Positions 9,032 to 28,293 of a stretch of 64,000 bases of DNA are shown one piece after another. The position numbers were made by a program, and so were the translations under genes. Under the pieces are notes generated by a model. That model was not told the DNA's origin and ran no database searches. It was given only the letters and a program-made list of their open reading frames with translations. Source of the DNA: Muribaculaceae bacterium (GTDB lineage Bacteria > Bacteroidota > Bacteroidia > Bacteroidales > Muribaculaceae). The stretch covers positions 1 to 64,000 of the forward strand of contig JAFLTY010000006.1 in NCBI GenBank assembly GCA_022509065.1, given 5' to 3'. Position 1 is the first letter of the stretch. Each line of letters begins with the position of its first letter.

Positions 9032-10264
9032 ATGGCAACAGTTAAGCTAAAATTCAGATCGTCAACGGTTCCGGGAAAGGAAGGCAACCTGTTTTTTCAG
9101 ATTATACATCATAGGCAAACAAGACAAATATCTACCGGCTTGTGCGTGAGCGAATCTGAATGGAATCATGAAGAGGGCTCTCTCGTCGCGCCTGAGGAAG
9201 CTTCAACAGATAGGAGGAAGTATCTGACGGAGCTCAAAGAGAATCTCAAAGAACGACAGACCAAGTTGCTTAGAATAGTTTCTGAAATGGAAACTAAAGG
9301 CTCATTCTTTACAGCCAGAGATGTGGTTGACGCATATAAGTTGCATAAATCCACTGAATTAGAGGGTGTGGTGTCCTTTACCCAAGCGCTAATAGAGGAA
9401 CTGACAAGAATAGGGAAGAGGGCGGCTGTAAGGCGTTATAAGGCCTCGTTGAGCAGTCTGTTGAGATACAATGGCGGTGAAGAGGTGAAATGGAAGCATT
9501 TGTCTTCGACATTCATCTTGGGATACGAGGAGTTTCTTATGCGGCGTGGTCTGTGCCGGAATTCCACTTCTTTCTATATGCGCAATCTTCGGGCTATTGT
9601 CAACAGGGCTGCGGAAAAAGGTGTCGACGTGCCGGGCAATCTGTTCGACCATGTATATATGGGTGTGGATAAAACAGTTAAGCGAGCTGTAAGTCTTGAC
9701 GTAATACGAATGATTAGAGATGTTGATTTGTCCAGACATCCGGCTCTCGATTTCGCTCGCAGGGTGTTTATGTTTGCCTTTTATACCCGTGGGATGTCGT
9801 TTGTCGATATAGCCTATCTCAAGAAAAGCGATGTACGCAATGGCTTTATCACCTATTCGCGACGAAAGACGCGCCAATTATTGACAGTAAGAATCGAACC
9901 CGAGACATGGAACATAATAGACAGTTTCGGCGAAAGTGGCACATCGTTTTTGTTTCCCATAATAACGGACGAGAGTGGTGACACGGATCATCAGTATATG
10001 AACGCGTATTTCCGCATAAACCGCAATCTGCGGAAAGTGGGCGCCATGCTCGGCCTCGAACACAGACTGACGCTGTATGTTGCGCGGCATGCCTGGGCCA
10101 GCATAGCCCACTCGAACAATGTAGCGCTATCTGTCATCAGTAAAGCCATGGGACACGATTCGGAAAAGACAACAGCCATTTACTTGCAGTCGCTTGACAC
10201 AGCATCGGTAGACAAGGCTAACAGCGACATTATTAGGATGATAGGGTGTGCAAAGATGACTTAA
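9032..10264 (+). CDS. tyrosine recombinase, probable invertase of the adjacent promoter
   Basis: A 410-residue tyrosine recombinase with all parts. It has an N-terminal arm-binding domain (MATVKLKFRSS through TGLCVSESEWN), a SAM-like core-binding domain (about 105-205), and a catalytic domain with Arg in FYTRGMS, Lys in RRKTRQ, YVARHAW (Tyr in place of the first His, a common form in Bacteroidales Tsr enzymes), MGHDSEKTT and the nucleophile Tyr of AIYLQSLD. Its stop lies 105 bp before a pair of 24-bp inverted repeats in front of upxY. By analogy with the B. fragilis Tsr enzymes encoded beside their target sites, I infer that it flips that segment. A partial -7 box (TATTTTTC, 9004-9011) precedes the gene. 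Confidence 0.93.
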   Translation: MATVKLKFRSSTVPGKEGNLFFQIIHHRQTRQISTGLCVSESEWNHEEGSLVAPEEASTDRRKYLTELKENLKERQTKLLRIVSEMETKGSFFTARDVVDAYKLHKSTELEGVVSFTQALIEELTRIGKRAAVRRYKASLSSLLRYNGGEEVKWKHLSSTFILGYEEFLMRRGLCRNSTSFYMRNLRAIVNRAAEKGVDVPGNLFDHVYMGVDKTVKRAVSLDVIRMIRDVDLSRHPALDFARRVFMFAFYTRGMSFVDIAYLKKSDVRNGFITYSRRKTRQLLTVRIEPETWNIIDSFGESGTSFLFPIITDESGDTDHQYMNAYFRINRNLRKVGAMLGLEHRLTLYVARHAWASIAHSNNVALSVISKAMGHDSEKTTAIYLQSLDTASVDKANSDIIRMIGCAKMT

Positions 10265-10368
10265 TGCTCCAACGATATATGAAAAATTGATGCGAGCAAC
10301 CCTATTGGTGCTCATCCCTCGCGGATAGATATGCGGAAAATACAAAGGGAAAAAGTTTTACACAAAAT

Positions 10369-10392
10369 GTCAGTCTCTTCGGAAGAAACTGA
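10369..10392 (+). repeat. left inverted repeat of the invertible segment
   Basis: Exact reverse complement of 10568-10591. Extended by one base it reads GTCAGTCTCTTC-G-GAAGAAACTGAC, itself a dyad with a single mismatch between its two 12-nt arms around a central G. This looks like two recombinase binding half-sites around a short spacer. Confidence 0.9.
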
Positions 10393-10404
10393 CATTTAAT
10401 GTGG

Positions 10405-10412
10405 CAAATTTA
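10405..10412 (-). promoter_or_regulatory. -7 box TAAATTTG inside the invertible segment
   Basis: Minus-strand TAAATTTG, full match to TAnnTTTG, 12 nt inside the left repeat. The -33 region is weak (GTTT, 17 nt upstream). In the present orientation transcription would run into the 3' end of the recombinase gene on the antisense strand. Confidence 0.5.
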
Positions 10413-10567
10413 CTCAATTTATTGGAAATAAACTGCTTTTATGAGGAAATTTTTTTGAATGCAGATGAAAATAAGCAGCAAAGTTTTTTATACTTCAACA
10501 GATGTTGTGCGTAACAAAACTTCAAAATTATGTCAGGGGCTGACTTTCATAGTGTTATGGTTTAGAA

Positions 10568-10591
10568 TCAGTTTCTTCCGAAGAGACTGAC
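10568..10591 (-). repeat. right inverted repeat of the invertible segment
   Basis: Exact reverse complement of 10369-10392, with the same near-palindromic inner structure (central C instead of G on this strand). The match stops at position 10567, where the left copy would require G but A is found, and on the outer flank the two sites differ, so the repeat is sharply bounded. Confidence 0.9.
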
Positions 10592-10768
10592 GCATAAAGG
10601 GTGAGGATTAGTATCCTCGATAGACAGCAATATGACGATTCAAAGAGACGGTTCAGAGGTCAGAATGACTACTTTCTTTTTGATGAAAGCGTGGAACTGC
10701 TTAAGATTCAGTGTGTTTGAATCTTGAGCAGGATTTGAAGAATTGTCTGTAAGTTGCCGACACCATCC
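10592..10768 (+). promoter_or_regulatory. upxY leader with two hairpins
   Basis: Non-coding leader between the invertible segment and upxY. Hairpin 1: GAGGAT (10603-10608) with ATCCTC (10613-10618), loop of 4. Hairpin 2: a 12-bp stem (10699-10710 with 10718-10729, one G-U pair, loop of 7), 40 nt before the upxY ATG. No T-run follows hairpin 2, so it resembles a pause or regulator-binding structure more than a finished terminator. UpxY proteins of B. fragilis act through the leader of their own operon, so this is the expected site of action here (inference). Confidence 0.5.
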
Positions 10769-11308
10769 ATGAACTCTCCCGAAAAGAAATGGTTTGTCAT
10801 GCGAGACCTCAAGCGTAGAAACTCCAACAGTCTTGCCGTTCATACCCTGGCGCAAGCCGGGCTGGAGGTCTTTACCCCGATGACACAAATGTTAATGACT
10901 ATTGGCGGCCGTCGCCAAAAAAGAGATGTCCCTGTCATTCAGGATCTGCTGTTTGTGCATGAAACAAAAGAGACTCTCGACACCTTTGTAAGTGCCTGTG
11001 CCACATTGCAGTACCGGTATCAGCGCGGCAAGACCAAAGATGACCCCATGACCGTCCGGGATGACGATATGACACGTTTCATCAATGCCGTTGCACAGTC
11101 CGACAGCCCCTTGTATTACCAACCCGGCGAGATTACAGACGCTATGCGCGGACGCACCGTACGCATCGTTGGCGGAAAGCTGGACGGATACGAAGGACGC
11201 CTGCTCGCCGTCAAAGGCATGCGCAAACGCCGCCTCATAGTGGAACTCCCCGGCCTTATCTCCGCCGCCGTCGAAGTCTCCCCCGACTACCTCCATCTCC
11301 TCCCCTAA
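10769..11308 (+). CDS. UpxY family transcription antiterminator (NusG paralog)
   Basis: A 179-residue NusG-like regulator, first gene of the polysaccharide operon. The N-terminal NGN domain begins KKWFVMRDLKRRNS and includes FTPMTQ and RDVPVIQDLLFVHE. The C-terminal KOW domain is seen in GRTVRIVGGKLDGYEGRLL. The frame extends to a TTG at 10754, but the ATG at 10769 is the likely start. In B. fragilis each capsule locus opens with upxY, which prevents premature termination in its own long operon, and upxZ, which inhibits the UpxY of other loci. No upxZ-like gene follows here: the next ORF is an epimerase 72 nt downstream. Confidence 0.92.
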   Translation: MNSPEKKWFVMRDLKRRNSNSLAVHTLAQAGLEVFTPMTQMLMTIGGRRQKRDVPVIQDLLFVHETKETLDTFVSACATLQYRYQRGKTKDDPMTVRDDDMTRFINAVAQSDSPLYYQPGEITDAMRGRTVRIVGGKLDGYEGRLLAVKGMRKRRLIVELPGLISAAVEVSPDYLHLLP

Positions 11309-11380
11309 TCCTCGAAAAATTCCTGCTTTTACCTTTCTCCCTTTCCTCGACAAACGCTAACCTTTTTGATTCCTATTAAC

Positions 11381-12355
11381 ATGTCAGTTAAAGTTTTAGT
11401 GACCGGAGGCGCAGGCTTCATTGGTTCTAACCTGTGCGAACACCTGCTTTCTAACGGATATCACGTAAGATGTCTGGACAACTTTGCCACAGGTAAATGG
11501 CAAAACATCATTCCTTTGATTGAACGCTATCCTGCCACCTTCGAAATGCAAGTTGGCGATATACGCAATCTTGAAGATTGTCGCAAAGCTGTCGACGGTG
11601 TCGAATATGTATTTCATGAAGCTGCCTTAGGCTCCGTTCCACGCTCGATCAACGACCCCATAACCACGAACGACGTCAATATAGGCGGTTTTCTTAATAT
11701 GCTCGTCGCGTCGCGCGATGCAGGCGTCAAACGCTTTATATTCGCCGCCTCTTCATCGACGTACGGCGATTCCAAAACCCTTCCCAAAGTAGAAGATGTC
11801 ATTGGCAAACCCCTCTCCCCGTATGCCATCACCAAATACGTCGACGAACTTTACGCCGATGTCTTTGCTCGCACCTATGGCATCGAATATATCGGCCTGA
11901 GATACTTCAATGTTTTCGGGCGCCGACAGGATCCACATGGTGCTTACGCCGCGGTAATACCCTTGTTTGTCAAGAAATTTATGAACCATGAAGCGCCCAA
12001 TATCAACGGTGACGGAGAGTACAGCCGCGACTTCACATATATAGATAACGTCATACAGATGAATATGCTGGCTATGACAACTACCAATCCCGAAGCTGTC
12101 AATCAGATATACAATACCGCTTTTGGCGAACGCACCACTCTAAATCAACTCGTGGAGTACCTACGCGAGTTCCTTGGCGAAAAAGACTCCTCTATTAAAG
12201 ACATTGAACCCACCCACGGTCCCAACCGTGCCGGCGATATACCGCATTCACTCGCCAGCATCGACAAAGCTCGCCACCTGCTTGATTATAACCCACGATT
12301 CAGCATGCGTGAAGGACTGCGACAGGCCGTCGACTGGTATTGGCAAAACCTTTGA
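11381..12355 (+). CDS. UDP-GlcNAc 4-epimerase-like SDR (WbpP/TviC type)
   Basis: A 324-residue extended short-chain dehydrogenase. The ATG at 11381 is preferred to the upstream TTG. It has the NAD motif GGAGFIGS near the N-terminus, LDNFATG as in WbpP/TviC, the Ser-Ser-Ser-T stretch FAASSSTYG, and the YxxxK pair in SPYAITKYVDE. WbpP-type enzymes interconvert UDP-GlcNAc and UDP-GalNAc. The adjacent dehydrogenase (12407) suggests the product is oxidised to UDP-GalNAcA, as in the TviB/TviC pair. Codon use is C-rich and clearly different from the AT-rich genes after 17181. A lone -7 box (TATTTTTG, 12368-12375) after this gene lacks a spaced -33. Confidence 0.9.
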   Translation: MSVKVLVTGGAGFIGSNLCEHLLSNGYHVRCLDNFATGKWQNIIPLIERYPATFEMQVGDIRNLEDCRKAVDGVEYVFHEAALGSVPRSINDPITTNDVNIGGFLNMLVASRDAGVKRFIFAASSSTYGDSKTLPKVEDVIGKPLSPYAITKYVDELYADVFARTYGIEYIGLRYFNVFGRRQDPHGAYAAVIPLFVKKFMNHEAPNINGDGEYSRDFTYIDNVIQMNMLAMTTTNPEAVNQIYNTAFGERTTLNQLVEYLREFLGEKDSSIKDIEPTHGPNRAGDIPHSLASIDKARHLLDYNPRFSMREGLRQAVDWYWQNL

Positions 12356-12406
12356 TTAACATAGTCATATTTTTGATAACAAAATAATATCCAATATATT
12401 ACAATC

Positions 12407-13684
12407 ATGGAACTTAAAGATATAAAAATTTGTGTTATAGGCCTCGGTTACGTAGGCTTGCCCCTTGCACGGCTATTCTCTACAAAATATCCCACAGTAG
12501 GCTTCGACATGAACCCCCGTCGCGTCAAAGCCCTCATGGAAGGCCACGACGCCACACTCGAAGTCAGTGACGAACTACTGCAAGACGCTATACACAATCA
12601 CGGATTTGTCTGCACATCGGATATCGAAGACATCCGCGACTGCAACTTCTTTGTCGTCGCCGTGCCCACCCCCGTTGACGAGAACAACAATCCCGACCTC
12701 ACACCCCTCTACGGTGCGTCCGAGACCGTCGGCAAAGTCATCAAGCCCGGCGACATCGTCGTCTACGAGTCCACCGTCTATCCCGGTGTCACCGAAGACG
12801 AATGTATACCCGTCGTAGAGCGCGTCTCCGGACTTGAGTTCAACAAAGACTTCTACGCCGGCTACTCACCCGAACGCATCAACCCCGGCGACAAACTCCA
12901 CACCGTCGAAAAAATCAAGAAAGTCACCTCAGGGTCAACTCCCGAGATAGGCCGACTCGTAAACGACGTCTACTCGTCCGTCATTACCGCCGGCACACAC
13001 CTCGCCCCCACCATCAAAGTGGCCGAAGCCGCCAAAGTCATCGAGAACTCACAACGTGACATCAACATAGCCTTTGTCAACGAACTCGCCAAGATATTCC
13101 ATCTCATGGGCATCGACACCACCGACGTCCTTGAAGCCGCTTCGACCAAGTGGAACTTCCTGCCCTTCAAACCCGGACTTGTCGGAGGCCATTGCATAGG
13201 CGTCGACCCCTATTACCTGGCACAATGCGCCCAGCGCTACGGCTATAACCCCGAAATCATCCTTGCCGGACGACGCATGAACGACGGCATGGGTGCATAC
13301 GTCGCCGACCGCGTCATCAAACTCATGCTCAAAAAAGGCATACAAGTACTCAACAGCCATATCCTCATCCTGGGCTTCACCTTCAAGGAAAACTGCCCCG
13401 ATGTACGCAACACCAAGGTTGTCGATATCGTCAAAGCTCTGCGCGAGTACAACCTCAACATCACCATCTACGACCCCTGGGCTAACCCCGACGCCGTACG
13501 CCACGAATACGGCCTCGAAGTCGTCAATAACCTCCCCGAAGACGAAAAATTCGACGCAGCCATCCTCGCCGTCGCACACCGCGAATTCTCCGATATCGAC
13601 ATCACCTCCCACCTCCGCCCCAACCACGTCATCTTCGACGTCAAAGCAACCCAAAACCCCAGCACCGTAGACGCCAGACTGTAA
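12407..13684 (+). CDS. UDP-N-acetylhexosamine 6-dehydrogenase (TviB/WbpO type)
   Basis: A 425-residue nucleotide-sugar dehydrogenase that oxidises C6 of a UDP-HexNAc to the uronic acid in two NAD-dependent steps. Visible are the N-terminal Rossmann motif GLGYVGLPLA, the central AKVIENSQRDINIAFVNELA helix, the catalytic Cys in GGHCIGVDPYYL, and the C-terminal UDP-binding domain starting ILGFTFKENCPDVRNTK. The GGHCIGVDPYYL form resembles TviB/WbpO (GalNAc) more than WecC (ManNAc), but wecB at 21561 keeps ManNAcA possible. GC-rich with strong third-position C, like the preceding epimerase. Confidence 0.93.
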   Translation: MELKDIKICVIGLGYVGLPLARLFSTKYPTVGFDMNPRRVKALMEGHDATLEVSDELLQDAIHNHGFVCTSDIEDIRDCNFFVVAVPTPVDENNNPDLTPLYGASETVGKVIKPGDIVVYESTVYPGVTEDECIPVVERVSGLEFNKDFYAGYSPERINPGDKLHTVEKIKKVTSGSTPEIGRLVNDVYSSVITAGTHLAPTIKVAEAAKVIENSQRDINIAFVNELAKIFHLMGIDTTDVLEAASTKWNFLPFKPGLVGGHCIGVDPYYLAQCAQRYGYNPEIILAGRRMNDGMGAYVADRVIKLMLKKGIQVLNSHILILGFTFKENCPDVRNTKVVDIVKALREYNLNITIYDPWANPDAVRHEYGLEVVNNLPEDEKFDAAILAVAHREFSDIDITSHLRPNHVIFDVKATQNPSTVDARL

Positions 13685-13690
13685 AAAACA

Positions 13691-14596
13691 ATGAAAGGAA
13701 TTGTTCTCGCCGGAGGGTCCGGCACACGTCTTTATCCGATAACAAAGGGTGTAAGCAAACAACTGCTACCGGTTTATGATAAACCTATGGTGTATTACCC
13801 GATTTCGACGCTGATGCTTGCCGGAATCCGCGATATTCTGATAATTTCAACCCCTCAGGACTTACCAGGATTCAAACGTCTGTTAGGAGATGGCTCAGAC
13901 TATGGAGTAAGTTTTACATATGCCGAACAGCCTTCGCCTGATGGTCTTGCCCAAGCATTCATTATAGGTAAAGAGTTCATCGGAAAAGATGCTGTATGTC
14001 TTGTCCTCGGCGATAACATTTTTCATGGAGCCGGATTCTCATCTGTATTAAAACAGGCAGTTGAAGCAGCCGAAAAAGAGTCAAAAGCAACTGTTTTTGG
14101 GTATTGGGTGGACGACCCTGAACGTTATGGAGTAGCTGAATTCGACTCAAATGGTAATTGCCTTTCTATAGAAGAAAAACCACAGCTTCCCAAGAGTAAT
14201 TATGCAGTGGTTGGTCTTTATTTCTATCCTAATAAAGTGGTTGACGTAGCAGCTCGCATTAAACCTTCTGCACGTGGGGAACTCGAGATAACAACAGTCA
14301 ACCAAGAGTTTCTTAAAGATGGAGAGTTGAAAGTCCAGACACTTCCCCGTGGTTTTGCATGGCTTGATACCGGTACACATGATTCTTTGGCAGAAGCTTC
14401 AATATATGTTGAAGTTCTTGAAAAACGGCAAGGCCTTAAAATAGCTTGCCTTGAAGGTATAGCATACCGTCACGGCTGGATTGACAAAGAAAAGATGGTT
14501 GAACTTGCGAAACCTATGCTCAAGAACCAATACGGTCAATACCTCATTAAGGTTATAGAAGAGATGGAACGCACAGGATTAAGAAACATTGACTGA
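13691..14596 (+). CDS. rfbA: glucose-1-phosphate thymidylyltransferase
   Basis: A 301-residue RmlA, first step of dTDP-L-rhamnose synthesis (Glc-1-P plus dTTP to dTDP-Glc). It has the nucleotide-binding motif [40 protein letters not shown] and [13 protein letters not shown]. It opens the rfbACDB block, separated by 1 nt from rfbC. A second rfbA stands at 30840-31730. This copy starts 6 nt after the dehydrogenase, so it is part of the same transcript. Confidence 0.97.
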
Positions 14597-14597
14597 T

Positions 14598-15173
14598 ATG
14601 AATGTTATAAAAACTGACATAGATGGAGTTGTGATTATAGAACCACGTATCTTCAATGATGCCCGAGGATATTTCTTTGAAAGCTATTCCAAAAAAGAAT
14701 TTGATGAAAAAGTTAGACCTGTAGATTTTGTACAGGATAACGAATCAATGTCATCAAAAGGAGTTATTCGAGGTCTTCATTTTCAACGACCTCCATTTAC
14801 TCAGAGTAAACTTGTGCGCTGTGTTAAAGGTCGTGTTCTCGATGTTGCTGTAGATATAAGGAAAGGTTCGCCTACTTATGGGAAACATGTTGCAGTAGAA
14901 CTTTCAGAAGAAAACCATCGCCAGTTCTTTGTTCCGCGAGGTTTTGCCCATGGATTTGCTGTGCTTAGTGATGTTGCTGTGTTCCAATATAAATGCGACA
15001 ATTATTATCATCCGGAAGTGGAGGGTGGTATATCAATCGCGGATCAATCTCTTGAAATAGACTGGATGACTGATCCAACAAATACAATCCTCTCTGATAA
15101 GGACTTCAGAGCTCCATTACTGAAAGATTTTGATTCTCCGTTCGATATTAACATAAATCTTTATACCGAATGA
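14598..15173 (+). CDS. rfbC: dTDP-4-dehydrorhamnose 3,5-epimerase
   Basis: A 191-residue cupin-fold RmlC. ATG at 14598 is chosen over the TTG at 14589 because the latter overlaps rfbA. Signatures are the FNDARGYFFESY region, NESMSSKGVIRGLHFQ with the catalytic His, DVAVDIRKGSPTYG, and VPRGFAHGF. The third base of its stop overlaps rfbD in an ATGA junction, indicating translational coupling. Confidence 0.97.
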   Translation: MNVIKTDIDGVVIIEPRIFNDARGYFFESYSKKEFDEKVRPVDFVQDNESMSSKGVIRGLHFQRPPFTQSKLVRCVKGRVLDVAVDIRKGSPTYGKHVAVELSEENHRQFFVPRGFAHGFAVLSDVAVFQYKCDNYYHPEVEGGISIADQSLEIDWMTDPTNTILSDKDFRAPLLKDFDSPFDININLYTE

Positions 15174-16042
15174 ATATACTTGTGACAGGTGCAAACGGAC
15201 AACTGGGTAACTGCATACGTAATGCATCAAGATTATCTAAAGATAAGTATTTCTTTACCGATGTCGCCGAACTAGATATAACTGATGCCGACGCAGTCGC
15301 AAATATGGTTCATGATAACGATATTGATATTATTGTAAACTGTGCCGCCTATACAAATGTCGACAAGGCTGAAACCGATGAAACTATCGCGGAAAAACTT
15401 AATGCCTTGGCAGTAGCGAATCTGGCACACGCTATCAAGGAAAAAGACGGCACATTGATTCATATCTCTACAGACTATGTTTTCGGAGGCTCTCAATGCA
15501 ATACACCTCGTACAGAAACGGAACCGGTTAATCCAACAGGAGTATATGGTCTCACAAAGTTGCATGGGGAGCAAGCCGTTGAAGCAAGCGGATGTAAAGC
15601 ACTTATTTTTCGAACAGCATGGCTTTATTCGGAATATGGAAAGAATTTTGTCAAAACAATGCTTAATTTGACATCGACACAGCCGGATTTAAAGGTCGTT
15701 TTTGACCAGGTTGGGACACCGACTTATGCGCAAGATCTCGCCCATGCTATATATGAAATAATTGAAAATCGCAAGTTCCATGGGAGCGAAGGAATATACC
15801 ACTACTCCAATGAAGGTGTGTGCTCATGGTTCGACTTTACAAAAGCTATTGCTGAAATCGCCGGAAACAAGGACTGCGATATTCAACCATGCCACTCCGA
15901 TGAGTTCCCTTCTCCCGTGATTCGGCCATCATATTCAGTATTAGATAAGACTAAATTCAAGCAAACATTCGACTTGCAAGTGCCTTATTGGATCGATTCG
16001 CTCAAAGTATGTATTAAAAATCTGAAGGAAAATGAATCGTAA
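15170..16042 (+). CDS. rfbD: dTDP-4-dehydrorhamnose reductase
   Basis: A 290-residue RmlD, the final NAD(P)H-dependent step giving dTDP-L-rhamnose. N-terminal GANGQLG, NCAAYTNVDKAE, ISTDYVFGG with the catalytic Thr/Tyr region, YGLTKLHGE as the YxxxK motif, and FRTAWLYSEYG are all present. It overlaps rfbC by 4 nt and rfbB by 11 nt. Confidence 0.97.
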   Translation: MNILVTGANGQLGNCIRNASRLSKDKYFFTDVAELDITDADAVANMVHDNDIDIIVNCAAYTNVDKAETDETIAEKLNALAVANLAHAIKEKDGTLIHISTDYVFGGSQCNTPRTETEPVNPTGVYGLTKLHGEQAVEASGCKALIFRTAWLYSEYGKNFVKTMLNLTSTQPDLKVVFDQVGTPTYAQDLAHAIYEIIENRKFHGSEGIYHYSNEGVCSWFDFTKAIAEIAGNKDCDIQPCHSDEFPSPVIRPSYSVLDKTKFKQTFDLQVPYWIDSLKVCIKNLKENES

Positions 16043-17162
16043 TATACTTATCACTGGTGGAGCCGGTTTTATAGGCTCGCATGTTGTCCGTCTTTTTGTG
16101 AACAAATACCCGGGATACAATATCATCAATCTTGATAAACTGACATATGCCGGAAACCTCGCAAATCTCAAAGATATCGAGGACAGACCGAATTATAAGT
16201 TCATAAAAGCAGATATCTGCGATTATGATAGAATGAGGGAAATCATCAGCTCAAATCAAATCGACGGTATCATACATCTTGCAGCTGAAAGCCATGTGGA
16301 TCGCTCGATTAAAGATCCGTTTACATTTGCACGAACAAATGTTATGGGGACGCTTTCTTTGTTGCAGGCTGCCAAAGAATATTGGGAGTCGTTACAAGAG
16401 AAATACAAGGGCAAACTATTCTATCACATTTCTACCGATGAGGTCTATGGAGCTCTTGCACTGACGCATCCTGAAGGAGTCGTGGCGCCGTTTACTACCA
16501 AAGCTTCCAGCGAAGACGACATGGCATACGGCACAGAGTTTTTCCTCGAAACAACCAAGTACAATCCACATTCACCATATTCAGCATCAAAGGCTTCGAG
16601 CGACCACTTTGTACGGGCTTATCACGACACTTACGGAATGCCAACCATAGTGACAAACTGTTCTAATAACTACGGTCCCTTTCAGTTCCCCGAAAAACTG
16701 ATACCATTGTTTATAAACAATATACGGCAGGGAAAACCACTCCCCGTTTATGGTAAAGGCGAGAACGTCCGCGATTGGCTCTTTGTGGAAGATCATGCCA
16801 GAGCTATTGACCTCATCTTCCACAAGGGAAAAGTTGCCGAAACGTATAATATCGGCGGGTTCAACGAATGGAAGAATATCGACCTTATTAAAGTTATTAT
16901 AAAGACAGTCGACAGATTACTTGGCAATCCGGAAGGGTACTCTGATCATCTTATTACATTCGTAACAGACCGGCTTGGCCACGACATGCGCTACGCCATC
17001 GATTCCCGTAAACTTCAGGCTGAACTTGGATGGGAACCCTCACTCCAATTCGAAGAAGGCATCGAAAAAACGGTCCGCTGGTACCTCGATAATCAAGATT
17101 GGATGGACGATATCACATCCGGTGATTATCTTACCTATTATCGAGAAATGTATAGTTTATAA
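16032..17162 (+). CDS. rfbB: dTDP-glucose 4,6-dehydratase
   Basis: A 376-residue RmlB converting dTDP-glucose to the 4-keto-6-deoxy sugar. NAD motif GGAGFIGS, LAAESHVDRSI, HISTDEVYGAL with the catalytic Thr-Asp-Glu, and YSASKASSDH (YxxxK) are intact. The paralog at 29679-30833 is highly similar through most of its length. One difference lies in a conserved segment: this copy has TDRLGHD where the paralog and the family have TDRPGHD. Whether this affects activity is unknown. With rfbA, rfbC and rfbD it completes the rhamnose pathway inside the locus. Confidence 0.97.
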   Translation: MNRNILITGGAGFIGSHVVRLFVNKYPGYNIINLDKLTYAGNLANLKDIEDRPNYKFIKADICDYDRMREIISSNQIDGIIHLAAESHVDRSIKDPFTFARTNVMGTLSLLQAAKEYWESLQEKYKGKLFYHISTDEVYGALALTHPEGVVAPFTTKASSEDDMAYGTEFFLETTKYNPHSPYSASKASSDHFVRAYHDTYGMPTIVTNCSNNYGPFQFPEKLIPLFINNIRQGKPLPVYGKGENVRDWLFVEDHARAIDLIFHKGKVAETYNIGGFNEWKNIDLIKVIIKTVDRLLGNPEGYSDHLITFVTDRLGHDMRYAIDSRKLQAELGWEPSLQFEEGIEKTVRWYLDNQDWMDDITSGDYLTYYREMYSL

Positions 17163-17180
17163 ATCCCGCTGACGGATAAT

Positions 17181-18407
17181 ATGACATCAAAAAGCTTAAA
17201 ATCAGTCATTTTTTGGAATGCAATTTCTCAATTTGGCACTTCGGGTGTTAGCTTTTTGAGTACGATTATATTAGCTAGACTTTTGAGTCCTTCGGATTTT
17301 GGTTTACTTGGCTTGATTTCTATTTTCATAGCAATTTCCCAAATGATGATTGATGCCCAAATGGGAGGGGCTCTTTTAAGAAAGAAAGATGTTGATAAAA
17401 TTGATTATTCAACATTATTTTGGTTTAATCTAGCTATTAGTATTGTACTATATTTAGTTTTATTCTTTGTTGCTCCCGTAGTTGCTGATTTCTATTCTGA
17501 ACCTATTTTAAAAGGGCTTATCCGAGTGTTAGCTCTTACTTTCTTTATATTCGCCTGTAGAGTTACTCAGCGAGTAATGATTTTTAGAGAGTGTAAATTT
17601 CATATTATGGCTCTTATTAATATTTCAAGTGGATTGCTAGCATTAATAAGTGCCATTTGGTTTGCTAATAGAGGATATGGCGTTTGGTCTTTGGTTTTAA
17701 TGCAGTTAGTGAATGGGTTTGCTGCCTTAATCATGATGTTTATATATAATCGATTCATACCTCTCCTAAAATTTTCAAGAGAATCTTTTCAATATCAATT
17801 TCACTTTGGTATAAATATTCTGGGAGCAGAATTTCTAAAGAGTATTGTCAATAATATTGGAACCAATATCATAGGTAAAATATCCTCTTTGCAATTTACC
17901 GGTTATTATACCCAATCATCAAAAATTACCGATTTTGTGAATGGTTGTTACACGGGAATTTTAGACCAAAGCATTTTCCCTTATATGTCACGTTTGAGCG
18001 ATTTTGACAAGATTACTGGGCTATATAAAAAATTGTTTCTTTTAATTATCATTGGAACCAGTTGTGCAGTAGTGGTGCTGTACTGTTTTGCATATCAAAT
18101 TGTGGAATTGATACTTGGAGTAGAATGGGTTTCCGCCACACCTGTATTTAGAGTTTTATGTATTGGAATCATTCCTATGACAGCCCAAACTATTTGCCGA
18201 AATTTGCTTAAAACGTTGGGTATAACAAGCCAGATTTTTAAAATCGAAATTTGGAAAACACTTTGCTTAGGTATTGGTTTTGCATGTTGTTTCTCATTTG
18301 GTGCGACTGCCATTATTTGGTCTATAGTACTGGTTCAATATATCAGTGCCATAATCTGGATTGGTATTTCGATACAAATGATAAAGAAAAGGGTTTATAA
18401 ACCGTAA
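17181..18407 (+). CDS. lipopolysaccharide/O-unit flippase (Wzx-like)
   Basis: A 408-residue integral membrane protein with about twelve hydrophobic segments, beginning with the amphipathic N-terminal pattern of polysaccharide transporters (LKSVIFWNAISQFGTSGVSF, then ARLLSPSDFGLLGL). This fits the MOP/PST superfamily that flips lipid-linked repeat units across the inner membrane. From here to 21522 the DNA is visibly AT-rich, unlike the sugar-nucleotide genes before it, as expected of exchanged O-unit genes. The downstream polymerase (3 nt gap) suggests a Wzx/Wzy-dependent pathway. Confidence 0.9.
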   Translation: MTSKSLKSVIFWNAISQFGTSGVSFLSTIILARLLSPSDFGLLGLISIFIAISQMMIDAQMGGALLRKKDVDKIDYSTLFWFNLAISIVLYLVLFFVAPVVADFYSEPILKGLIRVLALTFFIFACRVTQRVMIFRECKFHIMALINISSGLLALISAIWFANRGYGVWSLVLMQLVNGFAALIMMFIYNRFIPLLKFSRESFQYQFHFGINILGAEFLKSIVNNIGTNIIGKISSLQFTGYYTQSSKITDFVNGCYTGILDQSIFPYMSRLSDFDKITGLYKKLFLLIIIGTSCAVVVLYCFAYQIVELILGVEWVSATPVFRVLCIGIIPMTAQTICRNLLKTLGITSQIFKIEIWKTLCLGIGFACCFSFGATAIIWSIVLVQYISAIIWIGISIQMIKKRVYKP

Positions 18408-18410
18408 GAA

Positions 18411-19487
18411 ATGAATCCGGCCATTCTTGTTTTAGTCTGTTTATGTATTTTGGCTTTATTCTTCCAAAAGTCTAAAATTCTAACATGCATTATTTTTTTC
18501 TTCATTTGGACTCTGGCTTGGACTCGCCTACAACCTGATTATGTTAACTATGAAATAATGTATAATTTAGAGATTAACAAGGATTTAGGTTACTATGGGC
18601 TTTCATTGTTATTTAAAAAAATCGGGTTTGACTATTTCAGTTGTCGACTGATTATATTAGCTGCTGGGTGGTCTATATATTTATGGTTTATTATAAAATT
18701 TGCGAGACGATGCAGCCTTGTGGCTGCTTTATACCTATGCACTGTGTCATTTTATGACACAGAGCAAAACCGAAATTTTTTCGGTTTTGCTCTGTGTTTA
18801 ATCGGAATATCTGCGTTATTTAAGGATTACACTGTTAAGGGATTAATAAAATTTGGTTTTTGGGTCTTGCTTGGAACATCCATGCACTCAATGAACTTTT
18901 TTTTCTTTGTCTTTGGGTTACTAAATAAGAATGTTTTGAAGAGAGTCTCAAAAGTGCAACTTGTTCTAATTGCCGCATTTTTTGCTGGTGCTCTTTGGTT
19001 CTTATTTTCACAAGTAATTATTGATAAAATAGAAGCTTATGACCTTGGAGTAAGTTCGTTGACAAAAAATCTATTAATTATACTGTTTATCGTAAACATA
19101 ATCTTTATAATCTTCGTTCGAAAATTCAGATTAAAAAGTTCTATAACTAAAACATTAACAATATCACAAAAAAAATATTCAATTTCAGAAAATAATATAT
19201 TATATTTCAACTTAGCTCTTTTTGCATTACTTCCTGCCGCCTTCTACTCGCTTTCTGCTTTAAGAGTTTATCGTTATATGGAAATATTAAATCTTTCATA
19301 TGTCACAGATAAATTGGCCTCCAAATGGCCTCTTACGAATATTGGCTTAAATTTTTTGATCATTTTATACGGAGCCTCTTTCGGAATCGTCGCTTACCTA
19401 ATGCATTCTTCAAGCTATTGGGATGTTGTGTTACCTGAATTTTATGCAAATGAATTTTACGCATGGATATCTGCTTATTTACTATAA
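18411..19487 (+). CDS. EpsG-type polysaccharide polymerase (Wzy-like)
   Basis: A 358-residue protein with about ten membrane segments. The early loop (RLQPDYVNYEIMY) and the QNRNFFGFALCLIGIS segment resemble EpsG/Wzy family proteins, in which an Arg-containing motif follows a pair of short helices. It is the only polymerase candidate in the locus and follows the flippase directly. Two mutually exclusive perfect hairpins lie inside its coding sequence (18742-18797, separate entry). Sequence divergence in this family is high, so the assignment rests on topology and position. Confidence 0.75.
   Translation: MNPAILVLVCLCILALFFQKSKILTCIIFFFIWTLAWTRLQPDYVNYEIMYNLEINKDLGYYGLSLLFKKIGFDYFSCRLIILAAGWSIYLWFIIKFARRCSLVAALYLCTVSFYDTEQNRNFFGFALCLIGISALFKDYTVKGLIKFGFWVLLGTSMHSMNFFFFVFGLLNKNVLKRVSKVQLVLIAAFFAGALWFLFSQVIIDKIEAYDLGVSSLTKNLLIILFIVNIIFIIFVRKFRLKSSITKTLTISQKKYSISENNILYFNLALFALLPAAFYSLSALRVYRYMEILNLSYVTDKLASKWPLTNIGLNFLIILYGASFGIVAYLMHSSSYWDVVLPEFYANEFYAWISAYLL
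18742..18797 (+). other. two mutually exclusive perfect hairpins inside the polymerase gene
   Basis: Hairpin A: 18742-18750 pairs with 18754-18762 (9 bp, loop TTT). Hairpin B: 18757-18775 pairs with 18779-18797 (19 bp perfect, loop TTT; left arm begins ACACAGAGC, right arm ends GCTCTGTGT). The segment 18757-18762 belongs to both, so only one can form at a time, as in attenuators. There is no T-run after B. The amino acids encoded here are a conserved-looking EpsG segment, so coding constraint alone may explain part of it, but not a 19-bp perfect stem. Confidence 0.8.
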
Positions 19488-20365
19488 ACGATCAAATATT
19501 GTTTTTCGAATATTATAAAAACAATGTTCCTACTTTTACCATTTTCCCGAAGTTATCAAAACCCATTAAATTCCTTCGGTTAATAGTTCAAAAGTTTTTA
19601 CCATCCAAAAACCATTGGTTTTACACAAAACAATTTAAAAATGTTGGGAAAAACTTTAGCACTTTAATATTGTTTGACTCTCCGTTAACTGTTCCGGCTG
19701 CCAATTATATAAAAAAACGATATCCGCAATTAAGAGTAATTTATTGGTTTTGGAATCACATTTCAAATCCAAACATATTGTGTCAACTTCAGCCTAATAT
19801 TGAAAAGTGGTCATACGATCCCGAGGATTGTAAACAATATGAATTAAAGTATAACCATCAGTTTTATTTCCCCGAAATTGTTAACAATACCCCTGATGAA
19901 GCGGAAACATATGATTGTATTTTCGTTGGTGCTGACAAGGGTCGTAAAGAAATTATAAATTCAACCCAAAAGTTATTAAGTGATTTAGGGCAGAAGACAT
20001 TTTTCTTAATAGCTGACTCCAGTAAAGTGAGGACAAATAAGCATCGTCTTCCCTATAAGGAAGTTGCATCTTTAGTTAAGCAATCTAAATGTATAGTTGA
20101 TATTCTGCCTCCACACCAAAAAGGGATGTCGCTGCGACCGCTTGAAGCCTTATATTTCGGGAAGAAACTAATAACCAACTGGAAAGAAATTAAAGATACC
20201 CCTTTATATGATAAAAGGACAGTATATATTCTTGATGTAAACACAACTAATCATTTGTCAGAGTTTCTATTAGAAAGGCAAGAACATAACTTAGCGAAAT
20301 ATAACGAAAATATAAAAAGATATTCATTTCAAGACTGGTTGTTAAATTTTCAAACGTCCATATGA
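19463..20365 (+). CDS. probable glycosyltransferase, GT-B-like
   Basis: A 300-residue soluble protein overlapping the polymerase by 25 nt. I do not recognise the exact family. The C-terminal half carries DCIFVGADKGRKE, then LPYKEVASLVKQSKCIVDIL and MSLRPLEALYFGKKLITN, which is the layout of GT-B enzymes related to CgeB-like or capsular transferases (donor-site Arg/Glu pair in RPLEAL). Position between the polymerase and another transferase supports a role in repeat-unit assembly. AT-rich. Confidence 0.65.
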   Translation: MDICLFTINDQILFFEYYKNNVPTFTIFPKLSKPIKFLRLIVQKFLPSKNHWFYTKQFKNVGKNFSTLILFDSPLTVPAANYIKKRYPQLRVIYWFWNHISNPNILCQLQPNIEKWSYDPEDCKQYELKYNHQFYFPEIVNNTPDEAETYDCIFVGADKGRKEIINSTQKLLSDLGQKTFFLIADSSKVRTNKHRLPYKEVASLVKQSKCIVDILPPHQKGMSLRPLEALYFGKKLITNWKEIKDTPLYDKRTVYILDVNTTNHLSEFLLERQEHNLAKYNENIKRYSFQDWLLNFQTSI

Positions 20366-21522
20366 AAATTTTATTAGTAATGTCAGCTTTCAGATTATTT
20401 TCTTATGAAGGTAATCTTTATAAAAGAGCCGGAGGAACGCTGCATTTTTATCGATATGCCCCTTTAGGCCAACTAAATTTATGTTGCACTGTCATAGAAG
20501 GTGTCCCTGAAAAAGAGACCTTTAATATAGGAGATATGAAACTATTTCCTTTAAAGCATATAAAAAATGCTAAGAATCTTTTAAAATTTAGTCGATCCAA
20601 TTATAAAATGGTAAAGGAGGCAGTCGAGAAATCGGATGCAGTTATCGGATATGTTCCTTCCTCAGCAGCTTATGCCGCTTTTAATTTTGCAAAAAAACAA
20701 GGTAAACCATATTTAGCAATGGCAATTGGATGTCCTTGGGATGTTTTAACGCATCATGGTTGGAAAGGAAAGCTTATTGCTCCAATTCAGACCCTAAAAA
20801 TGAAAAAAATGATGAAAAAAACAGATTTTTCAATCTACGTAACGCAAAAGTTTTTACAAAAACGTTATCCATCTAAAGGTTTAAGTGCGGGCATCTCAAA
20901 TGTCATATTACATGATGTAAACAGCAATATATTGTCTCAAAGACTGGAGAAAATAACTTCTACTACCATTAACTCTTCCAATGAGATAAAGTTAGCTACT
21001 TGTGCAGCGATAAATGTAAAATACAAAGGTCAAGAAGATGTTATAAAGGCACTTTCCAAATTACAATATAAATATAATATACATTATTATTTAGCTGGAA
21101 ATGGCGATGCCAGTTACCTAATGTTAATGGCTAAAAAATATAACATGACGAATAGGGTGCATTTCTTAGGAGGGTTAAAACAGGAAGATGTTTATAACTT
21201 ATTTAAAAATATAGATATCTATATACATCCAAGTAAAACTGAGGGTTTGCCACGATCTGTTGTAGAAGCGATGTCTATGGCAGTACCATGTCTTGGCGCT
21301 AATGCAGGAGGAACACCTGAGTTATTACCTAAGGAATGCGTTTTTAAGAAAGGAAATATAAGTGATATAATAAAAAAAATTAATTGGATTTTGGATACGC
21401 GTGTTTTGTCAGACTTAGCTATTGTCAATTTCGAAAAATCTAAAGATTTTTTATTTGAAAAATTAGAAAAAGAAAGGAACGAGTTTATTCAAACTTGGGT
21501 TAATTCTTTTAATTGTAATTAA
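20362..21522 (+). CDS. glycosyltransferase family 4 (GT-B)
   Basis: A 386-residue glycosyltransferase with a 4-nt ATGA overlap with the preceding gene. The C-terminal donor-binding domain is clear: YLAGNGDASYL, NRVHFLGGLKQEDVYNLFK, then IYIHPSKTEGLPRSVVEAMS with the E-x7-E motif, and GGTPELL. The substrate is unknown. It ends the AT-rich block, and a promoter for wecB lies between this stop and the next gene. Confidence 0.88.
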   Translation: MKILLVMSAFRLFSYEGNLYKRAGGTLHFYRYAPLGQLNLCCTVIEGVPEKETFNIGDMKLFPLKHIKNAKNLLKFSRSNYKMVKEAVEKSDAVIGYVPSSAAYAAFNFAKKQGKPYLAMAIGCPWDVLTHHGWKGKLIAPIQTLKMKKMMKKTDFSIYVTQKFLQKRYPSKGLSAGISNVILHDVNSNILSQRLEKITSTTINSSNEIKLATCAAINVKYKGQEDVIKALSKLQYKYNIHYYLAGNGDASYLMLMAKKYNMTNRVHFLGGLKQEDVYNLFKNIDIYIHPSKTEGLPRSVVEAMSMAVPCLGANAGGTPELLPKECVFKKGNISDIIKKINWILDTRVLSDLAIVNFEKSKDFLFEKLEKERNEFIQTWVNSFNCN

Positions 21523-21543
21523 TATGGAGCTATTGTATTTTTG
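21512..21543 (+). promoter_or_regulatory. internal promoter in front of wecB
   Basis: ATTG (21512-21515), 20-nt spacer, TATTTTTG (21536-21543), matching the Bacteroidetes consensus except for one base at -33. The expected start near 21550 is only about 10 nt before the wecB ATG. It overlaps the last codons of the preceding transferase. AT-richness raises the chance of a random match. Confidence 0.5.
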
Positions 21544-21560
21544 AGATAGTTAAACTTGTC

Positions 21561-22715
21561 ATGAAAAAGATAATGCTTGTTTTCGGGACTCGTCCGGAAG
21601 CCATCAAAATGGCTCCCCTAGTCAAGGAGTTCCAGAAACACCCAGAGGCGTTCGACACCGTGGTTTGCGTCACCGGACAACACCGACAGATGCTCGACCA
21701 AGTGTTGGACATCTTCGATATCAAGCCCGATTACGACCTGAACATAATGCAAGCCGGGCAAGATCTGTTTGATGTAACGGCTCGCGTCATCGTCGGCATG
21801 CGTGATGTCCTTGATCAAGCAAAACCCAACATCGTCCTGGTTCACGGTGACACTACCACATCGACAGCCGCCGCGCTCGCCGCTTTCTACCGACAGATTC
21901 CCGTGGGGCACGTCGAGGCCGGGTTACGGACACATAACATCTACAGTCCGTGGCCTGAGGAGATGAACCGACAGCTGACAGGCCGCATCGCGACACACCA
22001 TTTCGCCCCCACTCCCTTAAGTCGACAAAACCTTATCGACGAAGGCGTGCCTTCGGAACGAATAACAGTTACGGGCAACACCGTCATCGACGCATTGTAT
22101 TGGGTCGTTGACAAAATCAAAAACAACCCGACGCTTGACAATGAACTGAACGCTGAACTCCGAAAAGCAGGTTATGACACAGCCCGGCTCGCTAAAGGAC
22201 ATAACCTGGTGCTAATCACCGGTCACCGACGCGAAAACTTCGGCGAAGGGTTTATCTCCATGTGCAAGGCGATAAAAACCCTTACAGAAAAATACCCCGA
22301 CATCGATTTCGTCTATCCGATGCATCTCAATCCCAATGTGCGCCGCCCCATACACGAAGTCTTTGGCGAAGATCTATCCAACCTAGGTAACATGTTCTTT
22401 ATCGAACCGCTTGAATACCTGTCGTTTGTCTATTTGATGGAAAAAGCGCGCATAGTTTTGACTGATAGCGGAGGCATTCAGGAAGAAGCGCCTGGACTTG
22501 GCAAACCCGTACTTGTCATGCGAGACACTACCGAACGCCCCGAGGCACTCGAAGCCGGCACGGTACGTCTTGTCGGCACCGACTACGACCGTATTGTCAA
22601 TGAAGTCTCCTCCCTCCTTGACAATCCTGAACATTACAACTGTATGTCGCAAGCCGTCAACCCTTACGGCGACGGCCACGCATGCGAAAGAATAGTAAAT
22701 TCATATAAACTTTAA
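21561..22715 (+). CDS. wecB: UDP-N-acetylglucosamine 2-epimerase (non-hydrolysing)
   Basis: A 384-residue enzyme converting UDP-GlcNAc to UDP-ManNAc. Signatures are LVFGTRPEAIKMAPL, TGQHRQMLDQ, VHGDTTTSTAAALAAF, VGHVEAGLRT, ITGHRRENFGEG, MHLNPNVR and TDSGGIQEEAPGLGKPVLVMR. It is distinctly richer in G+C than both neighbours and has its own likely promoter, which suggests a separate history and expression independent of the invertible switch. The ManNAc may enter this polysaccharide or another envelope polymer. Confidence 0.96.
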   Translation: MKKIMLVFGTRPEAIKMAPLVKEFQKHPEAFDTVVCVTGQHRQMLDQVLDIFDIKPDYDLNIMQAGQDLFDVTARVIVGMRDVLDQAKPNIVLVHGDTTTSTAAALAAFYRQIPVGHVEAGLRTHNIYSPWPEEMNRQLTGRIATHHFAPTPLSRQNLIDEGVPSERITVTGNTVIDALYWVVDKIKNNPTLDNELNAELRKAGYDTARLAKGHNLVLITGHRRENFGEGFISMCKAIKTLTEKYPDIDFVYPMHLNPNVRRPIHEVFGEDLSNLGNMFFIEPLEYLSFVYLMEKARIVLTDSGGIQEEAPGLGKPVLVMRDTTERPEALEAGTVRLVGTDYDRIVNEVSSLLDNPEHYNCMSQAVNPYGDGHACERIVNSYKL

Positions 22716-22724
22716 AGCAAAAAC

Positions 22725-23450
22725 ATGATACCAAAAAAGATACATTATTGTTGGTTTGGGGGGAATCCACTGCCTGATTCTGCCTTGAACTGTATTAATT
22801 CATGGAAAAAGTTATGCCCTGATTATGAGATCAAAGAATGGAATGAATCAAACTTTGATTTAGATACTTTCCCATATGCTAGACAAGCATATGATACACG
22901 TAAATTTGCTTTCGTGACAGACATCGTTAGATTATATGCATTATATACCGAGGGAGGTATATACATGGATACTGATGTGGAGCTTTTAAAACCATTAGAT
23001 AGTATCTTAAATTTTAAAGCAATATCAGGATTTGAGACAACCAATATGGTTCCTACTGGTTTGATGGCAAGTGAAAAAAATATACCCATAATTAAGGAGT
23101 TGCTTTCAGATTATAAAGAACGATTATTTGTTAAGGAGAATGGGTCGCTGGAAACAACCACTAATGTTATATACATTACTGAATGTTTAAAAAAATACGG
23201 CCTTCAATTAAATAATCAAAAGCAAACTATAGCGGAATTTACGTTCTTGCCTTCCGAATATTTCTGTCCAAAATCTGTAAAGGATGGTAAAATTTATCTG
23301 ACACCAAAAACGATAGCCATACATCATTTTGCCGGGACATGGCATCCTAAATGGCGTAATAAAGCACGCTCAATAATATTAAAAATAGGAGGATATCCTT
23401 TAAAATCGTTTTTAAGATACTTCATCCCTAAAAAAATTCTTAGAAAGTAA
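22725..23450 (+). CDS. glycosyltransferase family 32 (DXD sugar transferase)
   Basis: A 241-residue GT-A enzyme. It starts MIPKKIHYCWFGGNPLPD, a hallmark of the capsular GT32/Gly_transf_sug group, followed by DYEIKEWNESNFD and the DXD metal site in GGIYMDTDVELLKPLD, then ALYTEGG upstream of it. AT-rich, like 17181-21522, so wecB sits as a GC-rich insert between two AT-rich transferase genes. Acceptor and donor unknown. Confidence 0.9.
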   Translation: MIPKKIHYCWFGGNPLPDSALNCINSWKKLCPDYEIKEWNESNFDLDTFPYARQAYDTRKFAFVTDIVRLYALYTEGGIYMDTDVELLKPLDSILNFKAISGFETTNMVPTGLMASEKNIPIIKELLSDYKERLFVKENGSLETTTNVIYITECLKKYGLQLNNQKQTIAEFTFLPSEYFCPKSVKDGKIYLTPKTIAIHHFAGTWHPKWRNKARSIILKIGGYPLKSFLRYFIPKKILRK

Positions 23451-23476
23451 GTGATATCATCCTTAATAAAATCATT

Positions 23477-23860
23477 ATGATTGATTTTTTGTCAGGTGAT
23501 AGTTTCAGATTTCTATGGTTACCAATCATAACTACCGTTCTTACCCTTTGTATGAAAGTTTTTCATAAGGATCGTCTACTTAAAATGTGGACGTGGAGTG
23601 ACTTTGCTGTCGCTTCAAATCTTATGGTGACCGCGGTTTTTATATTCTTGATAAAACTGTCGTTTATAGCGGCTCAAATTAAGAATAACACGCAGCTTGC
23701 AAAGGAACGAATGGATCAATTCATGTCTATGTCCATGGTATTTGTTGTATTTTTTGTTGGTATGTTACTCGTAACTTGGGTAATGCGAGAAAAAGGATGG
23801 CATAAAAACTCACATGGAGATTTATTTTACTTCTATGATAAATTATTGAAATGCGTATAG
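23477..23860 (+). CDS. unknown three-helix membrane protein
   Basis: A 127-residue protein with three predicted membrane helices (about residues 10-30, 42-68 and 86-105). I do not recognise it. It overlaps the next membrane gene by 10 nt, so the two probably act together. Neither resembles a flippase, polymerase or chain-length regulator, which makes them unusual cargo in a polysaccharide operon. Confidence 0.7.
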   Translation: MIDFLSGDSFRFLWLPIITTVLTLCMKVFHKDRLLKMWTWSDFAVASNLMVTAVFIFLIKLSFIAAQIKNNTQLAKERMDQFMSMSMVFVVFFVGMLLVTWVMREKGWHKNSHGDLFYFYDKLLKCV

Positions 23861-24489
23861 TTAATCTGCTCATAGTCGTCATAAGTGTCCTGGCTGTTTA
23901 TTGTATCTGTGCTGTGGGGTTGGGGTGGTTTTGGAAGATTGGCGACTTCGCAAACGCCGAGGCGATAAATGCTGTGCTTCTCAATTTGAGCTATAGTTAT
24001 ATTGCCGGCGCAATATTCTATGTCTTTATCAGTTTTTTGCCTCACCTTATAATGGCACATAAGCTAAAAAAGCCTCTACAAGCGAAATTCAATAATATTC
24101 GAGACAAATTTAGCAACAGCATAAATAGCGTTTATCCCATAGAGGTGTGGAATACACGCTCTTATGACCGAAATGATATAATATCTCGCTTTAAGAGGCT
24201 TCAATCGGTGCATACGGCTTCACCGATGAGAGCTATCCACCCAGGGGTGTCTGTAATGGATCACCTAAGGGCTCAGCGCGATGCTATTTTAAAGGAGATT
24301 AGGTATACGTTGGAATACAAGGATTATTTGTCGTCCGAACAAATCATTGTCCTTGAAAAGATTCGCAACTGCGCTTATTTCCCCTTTCTTAACGCTTTTG
24401 GCAATCCGGCTCTCGACTTGCCAAATATGCGCGAATCTCTTGCCAAGGAGTTGTGCGACGCTTATGACTTGAGTCGCCTCTTGAATTGA
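23851..24489 (+). CDS. unknown protein with two membrane helices and a cytosolic tail
   Basis: A 212-residue protein: two N-terminal membrane helices (about residues 4-26 and 40-68) and a charged soluble tail of about 140 residues with no motif that I recognise. It overlaps the preceding membrane gene by 10 nt. The next ORF is a glycosyltransferase remnant. The two-gene unit could be an inserted cassette, since it lies beside disrupted DNA. Function not assigned. Confidence 0.7.
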   Translation: MRIVNLLIVVISVLAVYCICAVGLGWFWKIGDFANAEAINAVLLNLSYSYIAGAIFYVFISFLPHLIMAHKLKKPLQAKFNNIRDKFSNSINSVYPIEVWNTRSYDRNDIISRFKRLQSVHTASPMRAIHPGVSVMDHLRAQRDAILKEIRYTLEYKDYLSSEQIIVLEKIRNCAYFPFLNAFGNPALDLPNMRESLAKELCDAYDLSRLLN

Positions 24490-24527
24490 TGTTTTTATTT
24501 CGACATTATCTTATTCCATTTTCAACA

Positions 24528-24761
24528 ATGCGGCGAAAACTTATCAGAATGACCGCGCACGACTGCACCCTCGGTCTTCTCAAAGGTCAGTTGAGATTTT
24601 TGAACCAGTCAATGGATGTCACGCTTGTGGCTAAGGACACCGGCACGCTTAAACAACTGGCGGATGCGGAAGGTGTCGCTTATCGATTACTACTATGGCA
24701 GGTACTCTTTACTTCTGGAAATTCGATAGCGGTGCTGGCTTATCTCCCGGAGTATATCTAA
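24528..24761 (+). pseudogene. glycosyltransferase remnant (N-terminal fragment)
   Basis: The first about 53 codons from the ATG at 24528 read like the N-terminus of Bacteroidales GT4 enzymes: LLKGQLRFLNQSMDV, VAKDTGTLKQLADAEGVAY. After that the similarity is lost and the frame closes at 78 codons, while a whole enzyme would need about 370. Another frame stays open a little longer but shows no transferase motif. I read it as a transferase truncated by deletion, next to the unknown membrane cassette. The 95 nt to the next gene hold nothing I can name. Confidence 0.65.
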
Positions 24762-24856
24762 CCGTAAAAAACAATAATTTCTAACTCTGGGCAAACGACA
24801 TATGCAAATCGACCCTCGTATTGTCATCGGGGTAGATTTTACTTACTAAGATCAAC

Positions 24857-25966: not shown

Positions 25967-25972
25967 TCCCCA

Positions 25973-27901: not shown

Positions 27902-27903
27902 AT

Positions 27904-28293
27904 ATGATACTTAATAACGAGTTGTTGGATAAAATAACAACAGACGCTGAAGCTTCTCCACGGTTGAGAATGAACTATAATTTGCATGAGAGCCTCGAGT
28001 CAAAAGCGCAACGACTACTTAACGTGTTGTTGCCGGGTACTATATTACCCGTGCATCGTCACACGCATACAGCCGAAACATATATTCTTCTTCGAGGAAA
28101 AATGTTTGTCGTATTCTATAATGATCTTGGAGAACAAATAGAGCGCTATCTTCTTGATCCACAAATTGGGAATTACGGCGTACATATTCCACAAGGACAA
28201 TGGCATACAGTCGAAGTCATAGAGCCGTCCACAATATTTGAAGTCAAGGACGGTCCATATACACCTCTCCATCCGGAAGACATACTCTACTGA
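27904..28293 (+). CDS. WbuC-family cupin
   Basis: A 129-residue small cupin. The metal-site His residues of the cupin motif are present in LPVHRHTHTAETYILLRGKM and in IPQGQWHTVEVI. WbuC-like cupins are found in O-antigen and capsule clusters; the exact reaction is not established. It is the last biosynthetic gene, 2 nt after the initiating transferase and 10 nt before the defective recombinase. Confidence 0.85.
   Translation: MILNNELLDKITTDAEASPRLRMNYNLHESLESKAQRLLNVLLPGTILPVHRHTHTAETYILLRGKMFVVFYNDLGEQIERYLLDPQIGNYGVHIPQGQWHTVEVIEPSTIFEVKDGPYTPLHPEDILY

Follow-up and report, generated by a model that had tools for sequence, protein, structure and literature searches.

The 175-bp segment between a tyrosine recombinase gene and upxY in a Muribaculaceae genome is very probably a phase-variation switch, in which the adjacent recombinase would flip a promoter whose ON form drives upxY and the capsule genes behind it, with read-through assisted by UpxY. 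It would be a switch of a known kind, an invertible promoter served by a local recombinase and placed ahead of a UpxY capsule locus, here in the Muribaculaceae. The locus was analysed within a stretch of 64 kb (hereafter the window), and its features are collected in Table 1. We propose that the recombinase encoded just upstream binds both inverted sites, each composed of two half-sites around a 7-bp centre, and that strand exchange within the centre would flip the segment. The promoter would stand at one end of the segment: pointing rightward (ON), it would have the leader, upxY and the capsule operon transcribed, and pointing leftward (OFF), it would read into the recombinase gene from its 3' side. 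Once the switch is ON, UpxY would act on the leader, at a hairpin at 10697-10731, letting the polymerase read through the long operon. Three parts of this scheme are inferred: the adjacent recombinase as the invertase, inversion within this very strain, and the step assigned to UpxY. The original prediction of an invertible promoter controlling a surface polysaccharide locus is supported by the position of the segment, its promoter content, the UpxY capsule locus that follows it and the opposite orientations seen in relatives.

Table 1. Features of the switch locus, in window coordinates
Feature	Position	Strand	Remarks
Local tyrosine recombinase, presumed invertase	9032..10264	+	410 aa; Pfam domains, catalytic residues
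Left recombination site (putative boundaries)	10369..10393	+	half-site 10369-10377, 7-bp centre 10378-10384 (TTCGGAA), half-site 10385-10393
Invertible segment	10394..10566	.	30% G+C
-7 promoter box TAAATTTG	10405..10412	-	faces recombinase, away from upxY: OFF orientation
Right recombination site (putative boundaries)	10567..10591	-	inverted copy of left site, 24/25 positions; centre 10576-10582
upxY leader	10592..10768	+	transcription expected in ON form
T-rich run TTTCTTTTT	10673..10681	+	near-conserved in the seven closest loci
Covarying leader hairpin	10697..10731	+	followed by conserved GGAYTTGRAGAATTG (10731-10745)
upxY, NusG-family antiterminator	10769..11308	+	NF033644, 134.8 bits (curated NCBIfam cut-off 100)
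Capsule gene cluster	11366..28293	+	profile matches

The repeats had been described as two perfect 24-bp inverted copies around 175 bp, between the recombinase and upxY, and this is exact: the arms at 10369-10392 and 10568-10591 are complementary at 24 of 24 positions, with 175 nt in between. In the window this is the sole perfect inverted repeat that reaches 16 nt with arms 50-1500 nt apart, and the longest perfect arm obtained by chance was 15 nt (60 dinucleotide shuffles of the whole window, arms 60-600 nt apart). Each arm is itself an imperfect palindrome of 25 bp, matching at 22 of 25 positions, as expected for a tyrosine recombinase site built from a pair of inverted half-sites. On comparison with relatives, the site can tentatively be parsed as GTCAGTYTC-TTCGGAA-GARACTGAC, which sets the putative boundaries of half-sites and 7-bp centre. 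The centre is self-complementary but for its middle base, so the polarity of the site depends on that one base and on the difference between the half-sites. When up to 3 mismatches were allowed, no further copy of the 23-bp site was found in the 2.28-Mb, 95.5%-complete assembly, in which the window lies on contig C56; the pair thus appears private to the locus, in an assembly that lacks a few per cent of the genome.

The recombinase is encoded by a frame that is open throughout, and its Arm-DNA-bind_5, Phage_int_SAM_5 and Phage_integrase domains all score above the Pfam cut-offs. Residues R253, K279, R352, H375 and Y384, which we take to be the catalytic residues of tyrosine recombinases, are kept in 70, 73, 73, 72 and 72 of 73 aligned relatives, respectively. 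The classical motif of these enzymes is HxxR; its H position is occupied by Y in 71 of the 73 relatives and by H in 2. On named contigs, the closest relatives come from Muribaculaceae MAGs, one Muribaculaceae isolate and Barnesiella sp. WM24, and the one at locus L043 (contig G014:C25) from a genome of the window's own genus. Locus L044 is from Barnesiella sp. WM24 and locus L047 from Muribaculaceae Isolate-110, both cultured. A search of solved structures gave no match at E 0.001, and defence-system models (PADLOC) matched none of four proteins searched. A second recombinase-like gene (28304-29518) stands where the capsule cluster ends; it has a clear SAM-like domain, its Phage_integrase match reaches 20 bits, under the cut-off of 27.1, and no repeat pair (arms of at least 15, 60-900 nt apart) was found in the available flanking stretch. 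None was found either beside the recombinase-like gene at 256-1458, but its 3' side ends at the contig start after 255 nt, so that the repeat search is not a fair test there. A phage origin of the site was considered and rejected: one scan of viral contigs for the pattern returned 4, with a single palindromic match apiece and a repeat pair reported in none, and tblastn of the viral contig stretches scanned revealed no relative of the recombinase.

Repeat pairs recur behind related recombinases. Among 81 loci with at least 400 nt of downstream DNA, a pair of effective length at least 14 was found within 800 nt downstream of the recombinase in 40, against 1 of 84 over an equal length upstream; the 81 include near-copies (e.g., L059/L065 and L117/L133), so that these counts are not fully independent. 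As 41 of the 81 have no pair at this threshold, a switch beside such recombinases is common, not universal. When only recombinases of at least 55% identity are considered, 8 of 9 loci (the window, L043-L048 and L138, the last with a recombinase aligned only over residues 210-403) show a repeat pair no more than about 600 nt downstream, then upxY, and their arms are spaced 158-181 nt apart. At the ninth locus, L049 (= L084), the recombinase is broken into two frames, and both the repeat pair and upxY are missing; the two halves share 54% and 81% identity with the window's protein, a divergence that is uneven and perhaps mosaic. Repeats are present in each of the six rows grouped around the window in a tree of the recombinases (support 100/100). 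Over the whole tree the repeat label is patchy, with 19 changes against 24.6 in shuffles (8 of 500 shuffles as low), some rows labelled 'noIR' being merely short of downstream DNA; either the switch was repeatedly gained or lost, or the threshold misses some. In L059 and L065, a recombinase-switch cassette of the same kind stands ahead of a 963-aa protein whose sequence start, by eye, looks like that of a SusC/TonB-dependent receptor.

The half-sites are similar across the closest relatives, with AGTTTC or AGTCTC and one side degenerate in L044, L045 and L047. Their 7-bp centres vary by locus: TTTCGGA, TTTGGAA, TCCGAGA (twice), TCCGGGA and TCCGCAA. Many more distant relatives have a site of the type TCTC-7-GAGA, as read by eye. 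A recombinase, an invertible promoter, upxY and a capsule operon are found in this arrangement in Bacteroides and Phocaeicola (PMC12118408, PMC13114119, PMC8748976), and UpxY genes are placed near invertons in a defined gut community (PMC11892184). Local-recombinase invertible promoters are described for B. thetaiotaomicron CPS1, 3, 5 and 6 and for B. xylanisolvens CPS loci, which have in common with the present locus a tyrosine recombinase, a promoter flanked by palindromic inverted repeats, upxY and capsule genes (PMC12118408). Parsing with a 7-bp centre also fits the sites printed there for B. thetaiotaomicron (CCGTTACCTAAGAAGTAAC), B. xylanisolvens and P. distasonis, as GTTAC-7-GTAAC (PMC12118408). 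The half-site itself differs, being GTCAGTYTC here and GTTAC or GCTAC in the sites printed for those three species, as does the spacing of the arms, 175 bp here and about 290 bp in B. xylanisolvens (PMC12118408). In the window's genome the pattern CGTTACCTANNNAGTAAC, built on GTTAC and GTAAC half-sites, has 0 matches; across the order it was found in 4 of 393 genomes. Where the sampled genomes have GTTAC-type sites, the recombinases beside them share 28-37% identity with that of the window over about 300 aa, so the latter is of the same broad kind but different in sequence and half-site. The earlier suspicion of a separate recombinase-site pair is borne out by a site that is unique in the assembly and unlike the GTTAC and GCTAC sites printed in PMC12118408; its unlikeness to the B. 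fragilis repeat holds by way of a remark in that paper that B. fragilis shares the GTTAC pattern, not by way of the B. fragilis sequence. Judged by their letters, the present sites appear to be a class of their own when set against those printed GTTAC and GCTAC sites.

Mpi (FinA) of B. fragilis likewise inverts promoters ahead of upxY capsule loci (PMC12632263, PMC3090145). It is, however, one global invertase serving seven loci (PMC12632263), whereas here the recombinase is adjacent and the site pair unique in the assembly; global, Mpi-like action is not favoured given that uniqueness. It is likewise improbable that the segment inverts by the action in trans of another recombinase of the genome, the adjacent one being a mere passenger. 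The single global invertase of B. fragilis capsule promoters (PMC12632263) and a P. vulgatus promoter that still inverts next to a defective recombinase (PMC13114119) offer precedents, and the window's genome has five further Phage_int_SAM_5 matches. Yet the site has no second copy in the assembly, the closest relatives of the recombinase have sites of the same class directly adjacent, and the adjacent recombinase is intact, all of which speaks against the passenger reading. Tandem invertible regions beside one invertase, described for IP-ARG-2 (PMC8748976), have a likeness in the relative L047, where two invertible-looking regions follow one another behind a single recombinase and ahead of upxY, spanning about +53 to +252 and +362 to +574 as counted from the recombinase. 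These are of the same half-site type with different 7-bp centres, TTGTAGA and TCCGCAA in a by-eye reading, and the end-proximal promoter box of each faces away from upxY. Unlike IP-ARG-2, the L047 regions stand ahead of upxY and share half-sites but not 7-bp centres; the window has one region.

To compare orientations, the segments of the seven closest loci were aligned, arms removed, in direct and inverted form, with 200 shuffles as control. Twenty of the 21 segment pairs score above the best of the shuffles, and 19 of these 20 fit two states, {window, L045, L047, L048} and {L043, L044, L046}: same-state pairs align better directly and opposite-state pairs better when one is inverted. L044-L045 is tied between the two forms, and L043-L045, below the shuffles, leans the other way (22 direct, 18 inverted). 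The L138 segment gave no alignment signal in 7 of 7 pairs. The window and L043 share 25 identical consecutive promoter bases in opposite orientations, with the order of recombinase and upxY unchanged. The alignments indicate inversion of the segment during the divergence of these species, the orientations in other species being assembler consensus compared across species.

The segments also carry a promoter box in a constrained position. TAnnTTTG, the B. fragilis promoter consensus (PMC3090145), lies at most 35 nt from exactly one arm in 38 of 40 segments, at both ends in none, and is absent from 2; a one-end box occurs in 5.6% of shuffled segments, under a distance limit chosen after inspection of 25 segments. 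Among the 38, the box points away from the downstream gene (OFF) in 25 and towards it (ON) in 13. In the window the -7 box is exact and the -33 box weak, with at best 2 of 4 letters; a second box, TAATTTTG, lies on the same (minus) strand further inside the segment, and no exact box facing upxY was found in the segment. By the direction of its box, the assembled sequence is the OFF form of the candidate promoter. A terminator-like hairpin, GTCAGCCCCTGAC followed by ATAATTTTGA, lies on the minus strand at 10532-10544 inside the segment, but hits of this sort turn up easily (3 found in the region against an expectation of 1.5).

The single orientation in the assembly and the weak -33 box would also suit a frozen relic that inverts no more, with the locus locked OFF or read from another promoter. 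We hold this to be very unlikely, as the perfect 24-nt arms and the intact recombinase argue for ongoing use and orthologous segments occur in both orientations. That the repeats serve for protein binding or for terminating or attenuating transcription, and not for recombination, is hardly credible: each arm is palindromic and could form a hairpin, but the arms were not picked up by the terminator scan, inverted pairs of similar spacing stand behind related recombinases, and neither a box at one end only nor opposite orientations among relatives would be expected.

If the segment is an invertible promoter, as we favour, its ON form would be read into the upxY leader. The first gene after the repeats is upxY by its match above the cut-off of the family model; its likely start is the ATG at 10769, within a frame listed from TTG 10754. 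UpxY and transcribed DNA are reportedly the subject of a study by Saba and others from 2024. In several of the seven closest loci, the T-rich run TTTCTTTTT is preceded by a GAGG/CCTC stem, terminator-like by eye, and the window's stem is weak; the terminator scan found no plus-strand terminator in 10200-11400. The hairpin further downstream in the leader covaries. In an alignment of 13 leaders, pairing holds in 83.9% of cells, and 7 of 12 pairs are changed on both sides (a level attained by 36 of 500 shuffles). Covariation scores 0.410, whereas shuffles give 0.277, with 0 of 500 as high, and a slid partner gives no more than 0.224. Since the structure was predicted from 7 of the 13 loci and the other 6 were chosen by eye for the motif, this evidence is good but not independent. 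UpxY proteins are described as preventing premature termination in the untranslated region (PMC12118408), and the hairpin is a candidate UpxY recruitment element. A known RNA family in the leader was rejected, the sole match in 8900-11400 being a snoRNA model whose 18.1 bits fall far short of its gathering score, 80. At least 56 upxY matches were listed, and among the 30 given a locus, which were examined, 13 have a repeat pair at most 1.1 kb upstream, 7 a relative of the window's recombinase and 8 the motif GGRYTTGR. The leader element thus belongs to a subset of upxY loci, and with 17 of the 30 lacking a repeat pair at the threshold, the wiring of the window is not a family rule. A search for upxZ (PF06603) gave 0 matches in the genome, and was uninformative because the control genomes gave 0 too.

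Downstream of upxY, the genes at 11366-28293 are, by their profile matches, a capsule or exopolysaccharide cluster. They comprise genes for nucleotide-sugar enzymes (rml genes, and TviC- and TviB-like enzymes that score under the equivalog cut-offs), glycosyltransferases, a Wzx-type flippase at 17181, an EpsG-family protein at 18411 that is a candidate polymerase, a UDP-GlcNAc 2-epimerase at 21561 and a Glycos_transf_4 protein (WecA-type) at 26933. On the other side of the switch, directly upstream of the recombinase and on the opposite strand, 7799-8860 encodes a choloylglycine-hydrolase family protein, bile salt hydrolase-like and below the NCBIfam cut-off. Further out, 3098-6823 encodes a protein of 1241 aa that combines TPR repeats with a CHAT domain and that no PADLOC model matched.

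It is also conceivable, if doubtful, that the Muribaculaceae have a recombinase clade in which the half-site GTCAGTYTC is near-fixed and the 7-bp centre serves as an address that tells a switch from its neighbours, while antisense transcription in the OFF form damps the recombinase. Were this so, differing centres would keep neighbouring switches from recombining with each other, and the OFF state would partly lock itself. The Muribaculaceae are a large gut family, and among the papers listed in literature searches none describes invertible capsule promoters in them. The locus would extend a well-studied surface switch to this family, together with a distinct class of recombinase and site. Its relatives are natural recombinase/site pairs from which specificity could be read, and the covarying leader hairpin would provide a testable recruitment element for UpxY outside Bacteroides.
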